From: Gimesia alba
Lineage (GTDB): Bacteria; Planctomycetota; Planctomycetia; Planctomycetales; Planctomycetaceae
DNA: 64,000 nt
Direction: 5' to 3'
Assembly (NCBI RefSeq): GCF_007744675.1
Contig: NZ_CP036269.1
Coordinates: 2,955,546-3,019,545 of the forward strand
In this document: positions 8,568 through 53,046 of the stretch, piece after piece
Numbering within the stretch: position 1 is the stretch's first letter
Layout: each line of letters opens with the position of its first letter
The notes under the pieces: model-generated
What the model was told of the DNA's origin: nothing
Seen by the model: only the letters and a program-made list of their open reading frames with translations
Databases searched by the model: none
Program-made: the position numbers and the translations under genes

Positions 8568-8888
8568 ATGAAGATGTTTCAGCAGCTTTGGAATGATGAA
8601 AATGGTTTCGTCGTTTCAACAGAATTAGTGCTGATCGCAACCGTGTTGGTTCTCGGTATGATTGTCGGGTTAACCACACTGCGTGATCAGGTAATCGCGG
8701 AACTTGCTGACGTTGCCGCTGCAATCTCAAACACCAACCAGACTTATACTTTTACTGGGATTACAGGGCACTCATCCAGCACTGCAGGGTCTATTTTTCT
8801 AGACAACGAAGATTTTTGTGATGCAGCACCTGCCGCAGGTGCGGATGAGCACTGTATCGCTATCGTTGATCCTGAGGCGGAACTCTAA
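8568..8888 (+). CDS. Flp/type IVb pilin-like protein 1, C-terminally extended
   Basis: A 106-residue pilin-like protein. Residues 1-13 are a short polar leader ending in NG; residues 14-36 are the hydrophobic alpha-1 segment (FVVSTELVLIATVLVLG), with the conserved Glu at 19. This resembles a class III prepilin site, except that Glu is at +6 from Gly13, not the usual +5. The helix continues through TTLRDQ, as in Flp pilins. Ordinary Flp subunits stop near here, but this one continues with a Gly/Ser/Thr-rich region and an acidic tail containing Cys84 and Cys96. The RBS is GAGGAG. It is the first of three tandem paralogues and has a sigma-54 promoter upstream. Predicted to be cleaved by a TadV-type peptidase not present in this window. 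Confidence 0.82.
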   Translation: MKMFQQLWNDENGFVVSTELVLIATVLVLGMIVGLTTLRDQVIAELADVAAAISNTNQTYTFTGITGHSSSTAGSIFLDNEDFCDAAPAAGADEHCIAIVDPEAEL

Positions 8889-8977
8889 GTTTCAAAGAAG
8901 ATTAAGTGTTTAAACTATTTATCAAAATGTTCAACAGAGCTGTATACCGCAGCTCACATAATTAATAAGGAGTTAGG

Positions 8978-9304
8978 ATGAACATGCTTACTAAATTTTG
9001 GAATGATGAGGCAGGATTCGTTGTCTCATCTGAACTCGTTCTGATCGGCACAATTCTCGTACTGGGTGTTGTAGTTGGATTGGCAACGGTTCGTGATCAG
9101 GTTGTTCAAGAACTGGGTGACCTTGCTTTAGCTATCTCAAACATTAACCAAAGTTACAGCTTTTCTGGTGTTACCGGGCACACTTCTAGTGTAGCTGGTT
9201 CCATCTTTGCAGACGCTCTGGACTTCTGTGATTCAAATGCAGATATAAGCACTGAAGAGCCTCCTTGTATCAGTGTTCAGATTGATCCGTCAAACGAACT
9301 GTAA
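8978..9304 (+). CDS. Flp/type IVb pilin-like protein 2, C-terminally extended
   Basis: A 108-residue close paralogue of the preceding gene. It has the same architecture: leader to Gly13, hydrophobic helix with Glu19 (FVVSSELVLIGTILVLG), a charged TVRDQ boundary, then a shared block around GVTGHTSSVAGSIF and an acidic tail with Cys84 and Cys97. The cysteine pair is kept at nearly the same spacing as in pilin 1 (12 versus 11 intervening residues), which points to a functional disulfide. TAAGGAG lies upstream of the ATG. No sigma-54 motif is visible in the 89-bp gap, so it is probably co-transcribed with pilin 1; a strong terminator follows at 9325-9362. Either could be the major subunit. Confidence 0.82.
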   Translation: MNMLTKFWNDEAGFVVSSELVLIGTILVLGVVVGLATVRDQVVQELGDLALAISNINQSYSFSGVTGHTSSVAGSIFADALDFCDSNADISTEEPPCISVQIDPSNEL

Positions 9305-9324
9305 GATCTGAATCTTTGCAATCT

Positions 9325-9362
9325 GTTCCCGAGGACGCCCACTCGGGAACAGGCTGTTTTTT
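9325..9362 (+). terminator. Rho-independent terminator after pilin 2
   Basis: A perfect 9-bp stem (GTTCCCGAG at 9325-9333 with CTCGGGAAC at 9342-9350) is followed shortly by a run of six T. It separates pilins 1-2 from pilin 3, which has its own promoter. Confidence 0.85.
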
Positions 9363-9391
9363 AACTGGTTTTTGTTCAGATGGATCCTCTT

Positions 9392-9407
9392 TGGCACACA
9401 AGATGCA
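9392..9407 (+). promoter_or_regulatory. Sigma-54 (-24/-12) promoter of the third pilin-like gene
   Basis: The bases read TGGCACACAAGATGCA, preceded by T. The -24 box TTGGCAC is perfect, the -12 box ATGCA has one mismatch, and GG (9393-9394) and GC (9405-9406) are spaced by exactly 10. Transcription would begin near 9418, upstream of the ATG at 9477, which also argues against a start at 9372. Confidence 0.78.
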
Positions 9408-9476
9408 TATTTTCCGAATGTTCGGGAGATTCAGAGTTTACGGTTGATGATTGATACTGGTCAGGATGTAGTAGGA

Positions 9477-9770
9477 ATGAGAATTGCTCGTCAATTTTGG
9501 AATGAAGAGAGCGGGAGTATCTCTCCCTTTGCGACTGTCTTGATGATGACAATTCTTGTTCTTGGAATCATACCAGGCATCGCGACTTTGAGAGATCATA
9601 TCGTTCAGAAATTTGGTGATATGGCTGTTGCTTTAGAAAGTATCGATCAGTCATACAGCATGACTGTGAATGGTGTGACCAGTGAGTATGTTGATACCAA
9701 CAGTTTAACTGATCCTGTCGGGGAAGCACCTGCCTGTCTGGATCTTACGATTTCACCTTCTGGTGAATAG
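9477..9770 (+). CDS. Pilin-like protein 3, lacking the conserved Glu
   Basis: A 97-residue third paralogue. It aligns with pilins 1 and 2 through RQFWNEESG at the leader, ILVLG at the helix, ATLRD at 36-40 and a SIDQSY block. At the position of the conserved Glu19 it has Ala, and Pro17 sits inside the would-be mature N-terminus. The C-terminal tail is shorter and has only one cysteine (Cys87). Loss of the Glu is typical of tip or minor pilins that do not need to neutralise the neighbouring N-terminus during assembly, so a minor or initiating pilin is plausible. The start is the ATG at 9477: a longer frame from 9372 contains the sigma-54 promoter and is rejected. cpaB follows 138 bp downstream. 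Confidence 0.76.
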   Translation: MRIARQFWNEESGSISPFATVLMMTILVLGIIPGIATLRDHIVQKFGDMAVALESIDQSYSMTVNGVTSEYVDTNSLTDPVGEAPACLDLTISPSGE

Positions 9771-52116: not shown

Positions 52117-53046
52117 ATGTCGTTTAGAATTCTGATCTTCATTGGTTTATGTGTTTGGGGTACATCCATCGAGCCTGCCTGTTGTCAGTCTCAGAATATT
52201 GATGCTCGGACAGTGGATACCTCTGAAAAAGTCAACAATCATGCGCGATTTCATTCACTGAGCCGCCCGGGTTTGCACAATGTGTTTCAAATAGACGATC
52301 AGGTTTATTCGGGCAGTGGTCCTGAAGGGAAACAGAGTTTTGACGCTCTGAAGAAAATGGGGATCAAAACCATCATCAGTGTGGATGGCACCCAGCCGAA
52401 TTTGAAGCTGGCGAAAGCAGCCGGGATGAAATACATCCATATCCCGATCGGCTATGATGGAATTTCTGAAGACGCAAGTCTGTCGTTTCTGCGTGCGGCG
52501 AAAGAAGTAAAAGGCCCCGTTTATATTCATTGTCATCATGGTCGGCATCGGGGACCAGCGGCCGCAGCGATGGTCGGCCTGTGTCGGGGGAGTCTCGATA
52601 AACAACGTGCCTTGCTGTTTTTGGGTCAGGCCGGGACCAGTAAGGATTATTCAGGTCTCTGGAAAGATATCAGGCAGTTTCAAGTTCCCGCTGAGGGGAC
52701 TCCGTTGCCCGAGTTGGTTGAGTCAGCCCCTGTCGAACCAATGGTGACTGCGATGGCTCAGATCAGCCATTATTACGAGGAATTGCTTAAAAAGGCGGAG
52801 GGTACGCCTCGAGATGAGAAGAACGCAATGCGGATCTCTGTGCTGTTGCGCGAAGAGTTTCACGAGTCCTTGCGAAAACATTCTGATGATTACGATGACA
52901 CGTTTAAGAAATGGATGCGTGAATCAGAAATGGAAATCAAGCAACTGGAAGCGGAACTCAAGCAGGGAAATCAGAAACAGGTGAGTGCCCGATTGAAACA
53001 GTTCAAGTCACAGTGTAAGCGCTGTCACAAAGCGTATCGGAATTAA
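52117..53046 (+). CDS. Exported tyrosine-phosphatase-fold protein with C-terminal cytochrome c'-like heme motif
   Basis: A 309-residue exported protein with two parts. After a signal peptide (about 1-24) a dual-specificity phosphatase-like domain covers about 50-190; its P-loop HCHHGRHRG has the CX5R motif, Cys139 to Arg145. The second part (about 205-309) is four-helical and ends CKRCHKAYRN, a c-type heme attachment motif (Cys300, Cys303, His304) positioned as in cytochromes c' and c556. The phosphatase fold is one thing and heme the other; I know no characterised protein with both. It is followed, 10 bp away on the opposite strand, by the transglutaminase-like gene. Function unknown. Confidence 0.82.
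   Translation: MSFRILIFIGLCVWGTSIEPACCQSQNIDARTVDTSEKVNNHARFHSLSRPGLHNVFQIDDQVYSGSGPEGKQSFDALKKMGIKTIISVDGTQPNLKLAKAAGMKYIHIPIGYDGISEDASLSFLRAAKEVKGPVYIHCHHGRHRGPAAAAMVGLCRGSLDKQRALLFLGQAGTSKDYSGLWKDIRQFQVPAEGTPLPELVESAPVEPMVTAMAQISHYYEELLKKAEGTPRDEKNAMRISVLLREEFHESLRKHSDDYDDTFKKWMRESEMEIKQLEAELKQGNQKQVSARLKQFKSQCKRCHKAYRN

Follow-up and report, generated by a model that had tools for sequence, protein, structure and literature searches.

What would an exported protein do with the cysteine loop of a dual-specificity phosphatase and the haem attachment motif of a class II cytochrome c on one chain? This question is raised by a gene in a 64,000-nucleotide stretch of the Gimesia alba genome (the window). 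An earlier note on this DNA placed both motifs, CX5R and CxxCH, in a single ORF, and the ORF (309 residues), its coordinates and the motifs are as it described them (Table 1). Two readings were offered there: a haem-regulated or redox-sensing periplasmic phosphatase, or a Cys139 loop that binds an oxyanion while the haem transfers electrons. Cysteine phosphatases are known to be switched off by oxidation, but a literature search turned up no example of such a pocket linked to an electron carrier on the same chain, and none is known to us.

Table 1. Features of the phosphatase-fold/cytochrome gene, in window positions
Feature	Position	Strand	Basis
Exported phosphatase-fold/class II cytochrome c gene, 309 residues	52117..53046	+	ATG start; phylum-wide conservation
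N-terminal export signal, residues about 1-24, without clear lipobox	52117..52188	+	By eye and hydrophobicity scan
Dual-specificity-phosphatase-fold domain, residues about 50-190	52264..52686	+	Pfam, solved-sequence matches, model
Asp90, invariant in fused family; Arg in five ordinary relatives	52384..52386	+	Alignment
Tyr113 (95/95) and Asp114 (61/95; aligns with TpbA general acid Asp105)	52453..52458	+	
P-loop HCHHGRHRG, residues 138-146; Cys139 (catalytic-type), Arg145; family marks His144 and Gly146	52528..52554	+	
Four-helix class II cytochrome c domain, residues about 205-309	52729..53043	+	Pfam, model, profile matches
Met213, invariant, predicted distal haem ligand	52753..52755	+	Ligation inferred
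CKRCH, attachment site for haem c (residues 300-304), with His304 as predicted proximal ligand	53014..53028	+	

Two domains in one exported protein

The window protein falls within the cysteine phosphatase (DSP/PTP) fold superfamily by its HCX5R P-loop in an alpha/beta PTP fold, and within the class II cytochromes c (PF01322) by its four-helix bundle with CxxCH near the C-terminus. The Pfam DSP-PTPase model PF22785 (Tc-R-P) matches residues 72-149 (E 1.6e-6, 29.0 bits against a cut-off of 27). PF00782 (DSPc) stays below its cut-off (28.5 against 33.5), and the DSP models together span residues 72-153. At the other end PF01322 (Cytochrom_C_2) matches residues 261-308 (E 5.1e-7, 31.1 bits against 26.5), and the last ten residues, 300-309, read CKRCHKAYRN, which follows the pattern CxxCHxxYR.

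Could the motifs have arisen by chance? In 200,000 random shufflings of the window protein HCxxGxxR appeared 211 times and CxxCH within the last 20 residues 70 times, and the two never appeared in one shuffled protein (0/200,000). Together with conservation in the family, this rules out chance motifs. A frameshift or gene-end artefact is ruled out by the single open frame in homologues from 27 family codes. The proposal of an exported protein with a CX5R phosphatase-fold domain and a cytochrome c'-fold domain is therefore borne out by Pfam, the shuffles and the homologues.

The solved sequences closest to the window protein are those of TpbA, a periplasmic dual-specificity phosphatase of Pseudomonas aeruginosa (2m3v, with the entry title putative uncharacterized protein, E 1.9e-8; 4r0s, E 4.5e-8, or 2.1e-11 with a profile). 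An AlphaFold2 model made from a three-sequence input is of moderate quality (mean pLDDT 67.7, pTM 0.58), with an alpha/beta part at residues 45-187 and four helices at 208-308. With a structural aligner the first part matches TpbA (Z 9.6, 3.8 A, 153 residues) and the second the Kuenenia cytochrome Kusta0087 (Z 12.8-13.0; 6r6n has Z 13.0, 2.6 A, 102 residues). However, the match list for the helical part is headed, at Z 13.2, by a designed helical protein with no relation to cytochromes. The Kusta0087 fold match alone is thus no proof of kinship, and for this part the sequence evidence weighs more. Foldseek with the model gave no match at E up to 0.001.

TpbA and the window protein share the phosphatase fold, export and an HCxHGxxR loop. 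However, TpbA has the loop HCKHGNNRT with Thr after the Arg, Asp105 as general acid and no cytochrome domain. The phosphatase-like domain also has weak sequence and fold matches to the Blh sulfur transferase and DUF442 (TIGR01244, 3gxg), but these are far below the NCBIfam cut-offs (27.3 bits against 625 for the Blh bifunctional sulfur transferase/dioxygenase, NF040641, and 19.4 against 85.85), and the window protein has no dioxygenase domain. No Pfam or NCBIfam model among the matches spans both domains. A full-text literature search, which covers few subscription papers and is weak evidence of absence, also returned no description of the pair. To this extent the remark in the earlier note that no described family has both domains holds.

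Distribution of the pair

A search of 392 sampled Planctomycetota genomes gave matches at E up to 1e-5 in 183, stand-alone relatives included, and below 1e-20 in 135, one of which (G001) has the two domains split. From 100 fetched stretches and 13 other loci, 113 homologues were extracted, and 102 of them have both CX5R and CxxCH. In other words, the domain pair recurs in the phylum. The remaining 11 lack CxxCH. Five are ordinary TpbA-like stand-alone proteins (L002, L121, L123, L125, L126), one is a stand-alone protein with the loop HCHGGNHRA (L124), two have the cytochrome as a neighbouring gene (L117, L122), and three lie at or near contig ends, judging from their coordinates (L095, L131, L132). 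None of these cases refutes the pair, although the earlier note had named homologues without one of the motifs as grounds for doing so.

Conservation was read from 95 rows covering 27 family codes, in which 149-194 residues separate the P-loop Cys from the haem motif. These rows were selected on HC[HFYQ]xGxxR plus CxxCH, so the selection itself fixes His138, Cys139, Gly142, Arg145 and CxxCH and restricts residue 140. Left out of the 102 were L120, with the loop TCETGRDRA, and L008, L009, L013, L014, L026 and L118 (three second genome copies, two close relatives and one long tail). An ad hoc heuristic for export signals found a lipobox-like motif in 50 of the 95 and a hydrophobic stretch alone in 45. 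The long N-terminal parts of L052, L054, L098, L100, L119, L128 and L130 look like longest-ORF artefacts in GC-rich DNA, a call made by eye, with a Pfam scan of L119 and L130 only.

The Gimesia alba genome (one 7.77 Mb contig) has a single further match, a stand-alone TpbA-like gene with 22% identity. In this gene (L002, G000:C1:6307703-6308110) the loop reads HCQHGADRT, and no cytochrome gene lies within 1.5 kb of it. Two Gimesia loci in MAGs and one cyanobacterial stand-alone protein without CxxCH came out of a pattern scan for close relatives. Two of 72,556 plasmid records carry the gene, both planctomycete and annotated as 'hypothetical protein' and 'dual specificity protein phosphatase', and the fused gene was found in none of 50,697 phages. 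Presence beyond Planctomycetota was weakly probed by these scans, and other phyla could hold the pair.

The phosphatase-like pocket

Outside the selected motif, Pro69, Asp90, Pro110, Tyr113, Tyr178 and Gly180 are found in all 95 rows and His108, His141 and His144 in 94. The positions linked with turnover are not so constant. Position 114 is Asp in 61 rows, the window protein's included, and otherwise Ser (9), Arg (9), Lys (6), Asn (4), His (2), Ala (2), Gln (1) or Gly (1). Right after the P-loop Arg, where an active dual-specificity phosphatase has Ser or Thr, the window protein has Gly146, and the 95 rows have Gly in 77, Ser in 17, Ala in one and Thr in none. In five ordinary relatives that stand alone, positions 90, 144 and 146 are occupied by Arg, Asp and Thr. 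As judged from these alignments, the pocket differs from that of a standard phosphatase in that turnover residues are relaxed while other His, Tyr and Asp residues are fixed.

Is this nevertheless an ordinary periplasmic phosphatase, with its activity regulated by the redox state of the haem? This was the first reading in the earlier note, and we consider it unlikely. The CX5R loop is intact, PF22785 scores above its cut-off and the window protein has Asp114. Moreover, TpbA, the nearest relative that has been characterised, is active as a phosphatase in the periplasm (PMC4409338). However, Asp114 is kept in less than two-thirds of the rows, Ser or Thr follows the Arg in only the 17 with Ser, and the fixed His, Tyr and Asp residues are absent from ordinary relatives. 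Loss of Asp114 does not by itself exclude phosphatase activity, because the acid-loop Asp is dispensable for the first step in PRL phosphatases (PMC12192612) and the D105A change in TpbA lowers efficiency by only 53% (PMC4409338). It is the conserved pairing together with the rebuilt pocket that makes an ordinary phosphatase unlikely. The fused protein of Planctomycetota is probably something else, and regulated phosphatase activity is the weaker of the two readings first proposed.

The PRL (PTP4A) phosphatases are cytosolic and eukaryotic. Like the window family, they have a small residue in place of Ser/Thr after the P-loop Arg. However, theirs is Ala rather than Gly, and they have no haem. 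The usual Ser/Thr helps hydrolysis, and its replacement by Ala gives PRLs a phosphocysteine lifetime of over 1 h; the state of the PRL cysteine also controls binding to CNNM (PMC12192612). What if Cys139 behaved similarly? In this scenario the protein would be a slow phosphatase or switch in which Cys139 forms a long-lived phosphocysteine or oxidised state that is read by a partner, for example a transporter, while the haem sets or senses that state. Gly or Ala follows the Arg in 78 of the 95 rows, and PRL chains match both the family profile (E 3.9e-6) and the model (Z up to 8.9). On the other hand, the 17 rows with Ser do not fit, and TpbA is a better match than PRL. We regard such a switch as rather unlikely (for links with transporters, see below).

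The haem domain

Cytochromes c556 and b562 are stand-alone carriers in which the haem is ligated by a Met of helix 1 and a C-terminal His. Both residues of this class IIb arrangement are present and invariant in the window family, with ligation predicted from them. Among 34 C-terminal domains, with a mean column identity of 30%, the sole invariant columns are Met213, Cys300, Cys303, His304 and Arg308 (the 34-row alignment, A5, is the 36-row A4 minus L048, which has no Arg308, and the short L130). Met213 is found in 95/95 rows of one set and 36/36 of another. The Arg after the C-terminal His is likewise shared with c556 and b562. However, b562 has no covalent haem, whereas one is predicted for the window family from its CxxCH. 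With cytochrome c' (class IIa) and Kusta0087 the family shares the four-helix bundle and the C-terminal CxxCH, but it has the invariant helix 1 Met and the fused phosphatase-fold domain in addition. Window residues 206-309 align structurally with residues 25-129 of 6r6n, which places Met213 opposite residue 32 if ungapped; 6r6n is a C32M/C101M mutant.

An invariant Met at the likely distal-ligand position predicts a six-coordinate electron-transfer haem and not a gas-binding cytochrome c'. The haem would then be of the Met/His, c556/b562 type, and the cytochrome c'-type label originally given to this domain would need revising. What of a gas sensor or NO/CO binder, in which a five-coordinate cytochrome c' controls the phosphatase-fold domain? 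PF01322 scores above its cut-off, the best matches in a sequence-profile search with the haem domain are cytochromes c' (E 1.1e-8), and Kusta0087, which of all natural proteins matches the fold best, belongs to a complex that a reference list cites under a title calling it NO-binding. However, the same profile also matches the Met/His haem protein b562 over nearly its full length, and Met213 never varies. A gas sensor is therefore highly improbable.

Split genes and the history of the pair

In three genomes the domains are encoded by separate neighbouring genes (L117; L180, with a four-base overlap; L181/L122). Export signals are seen by eye on both parts at L117 and L180; at L181 the phosphatase-fold ORF is close to the end of a contig, and its N-terminus looks odd. 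Tyr113, His144, Tyr178, Gly180 and an acidic residue at 90 recur in these split forms, whereas His108 is not present in every one. At L122 the ORF (8579-9529, minus strand) seems by eye to run on into a second, degenerate phosphatase-like stretch.

Of four stand-alone loops of the H144 type, three have an ORF with a terminal CxxCH on the same strand no more than 1.5 kb away, compared with none of 31 other loops (37 loci viewed, 35 with a readable ORF; G386 is counted twice among the 31). The remodelled loop, as far as these loci go, accompanies a cytochrome in the split arrangement too. The exception is L124, an H144-type loop without a cytochrome neighbour, which speaks against coupling of pocket and cytochrome. 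In a tree of 44 phosphatase domains all 37 fused ones form one clade (95/92). L117 is the sister of this clade, but its branch is long and the support lower (92/49). The simplest history would be fusion of two neighbouring genes.

Gene neighbourhoods

No conserved operon was found around the window gene, and both of its immediate neighbours (110 and 561 aa) are on the opposite strand. Across 68 loci there are 54 close same-strand neighbours. Pfam scans of 45 of these gave Glycos_trans_3N as the commonest domain (7/45) and no common redox partner. One family code (f59: L056, L058, L059, L064, L065, L067, L082, L094) has a conserved upstream gene on the same strand, with about 1 kb between the gene centres and a Glycos_trans_3N domain in the L058 copy. 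Within 5 kb of 91 fused loci, six of 771 genes were flagged as possible redox genes, some of them spuriously.

Some loci are linked with transporters. At five of them, from five family codes (L061, L070, L104, L117, L133), the gene is in line with that of an FbpA/PhnS-kind ABC binding protein. A profile of those five binding proteins (A3, E up to 1e-45) was positive in 232 of the 392 genomes and added one adjacent case (L162), bringing the adjacent loci to six. At L163 a distance of 5.8 kb separates the two genes, which lie on opposite strands. The six adjacent loci include a permease in five, an ATPase in four and a multihaem cytochrome in three (L061, L133, L162). Among 26 binding-protein loci, a non-random set because five were picked for adjacency, 17 have an ABC ATPase on the fetched stretch, 16 a permease and 12 a multihaem cytochrome. 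That cytochrome, with about five CxxCH, clusters with the importer at L061, L133, L157, L159-L163, L166, L167, L173 and L175. TDTDD is conserved in five aligned members of the binding protein, and its solved relatives are mostly iron-binding proteins; NCBIfam leans towards aminoethylphosphonate, far below cut-offs. The binding protein is present in 128 of 135 genomes with the fused gene compared with 104 of 257 without it, a difference that carries little weight because relatedness is uncorrected.

In three cases the pair looks to be genuinely fused to a further domain. An exported glutathione-peroxidase domain (PF00255, E 8.1e-41) is fused to it in frame at L105 (8306-9796, plus strand), where the two other domains score just below Pfam cut-offs. 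The pair is a C-terminal extension of a Na/Ca exchanger at L120 (8982-10886, minus strand) and of a nucleoside transporter at L099 (7457-9772, plus strand). The last two, with the six ABC loci, speak for a PRL-like switch, although the linked transporter types differ. As for the plasmids, the Planctomyces sp. SH-PL62 copy is near a cytochrome c oxidase operon, and the Aquisphaera copy has no cytochrome c oxidase-like neighbours.

A haem-coupled redox protein?

On sequence grounds, the pocket and the class II cytochrome bundle occur in one exported protein and have been kept together across Planctomycetota, with the pocket consistently changed. For its function we tentatively prefer a haem-coupled extracytoplasmic cysteine redox protein on a dual-specificity-phosphatase scaffold. 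Cys139, which Arg145 and the P-loop would hold in place with Asp90, His108, Tyr113, His144 and Tyr178 around it, would bind a small substrate that is either an anion or a thiol. The predicted Met/His haem, covalently attached, would give or take single electrons and exchange them with Cys139. The cysteine would then cycle through redox states in place of fast-turnover phosphate-ester hydrolysis, giving the protein a redox or switch role. In some lineages it might work beside the FbpA/PhnS-like importer and the multihaem cytochrome.

Several observations favour the haem-coupled redox reading. Met213 is as constant as expected for an electron-transfer haem, and turnover residues are relaxed while Asp90, Tyr113, Tyr178, Gly180, His108, His141 and His144 are fixed. 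H144-type loops also tend to have an adjacent cytochrome ORF, and multihaem cytochromes at half of the adjacent ABC loci, the L105 fusion and the plasmid oxidase operon point the same way. However, most loci, including the window's, have no redox neighbours. In addition, the acid-loop Asp can be dispensable in true phosphatases, and Asp114 is kept in most rows and in the window protein. On balance the second of the original readings, in which the cysteine pocket holds a ligand and the haem moves electrons, fits better than the first, given the relaxed turnover residues and the invariant Met213. A fuller version is conceivable but doubtful. In it a phosphatase fold has become a redox enzyme driven by haem, in which an oxyanion- or thiol-binding Cys pocket exchanges electrons with the class II cytochrome on the same chain. 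It would have originated through fusion of neighbouring genes in an extracytoplasmic ABC-importer operon, followed by wide spread in Planctomycetota.

Because the pairing is old and common in one phylum, with a consistently rebuilt pocket, a single small soluble protein is enough to test whether a phosphatase fold can be coupled to electron transfer. A redox enzyme would extend a large fold family by one reaction type, and a switch would be a bacterial parallel to the control of transporters by PRL phosphatases.
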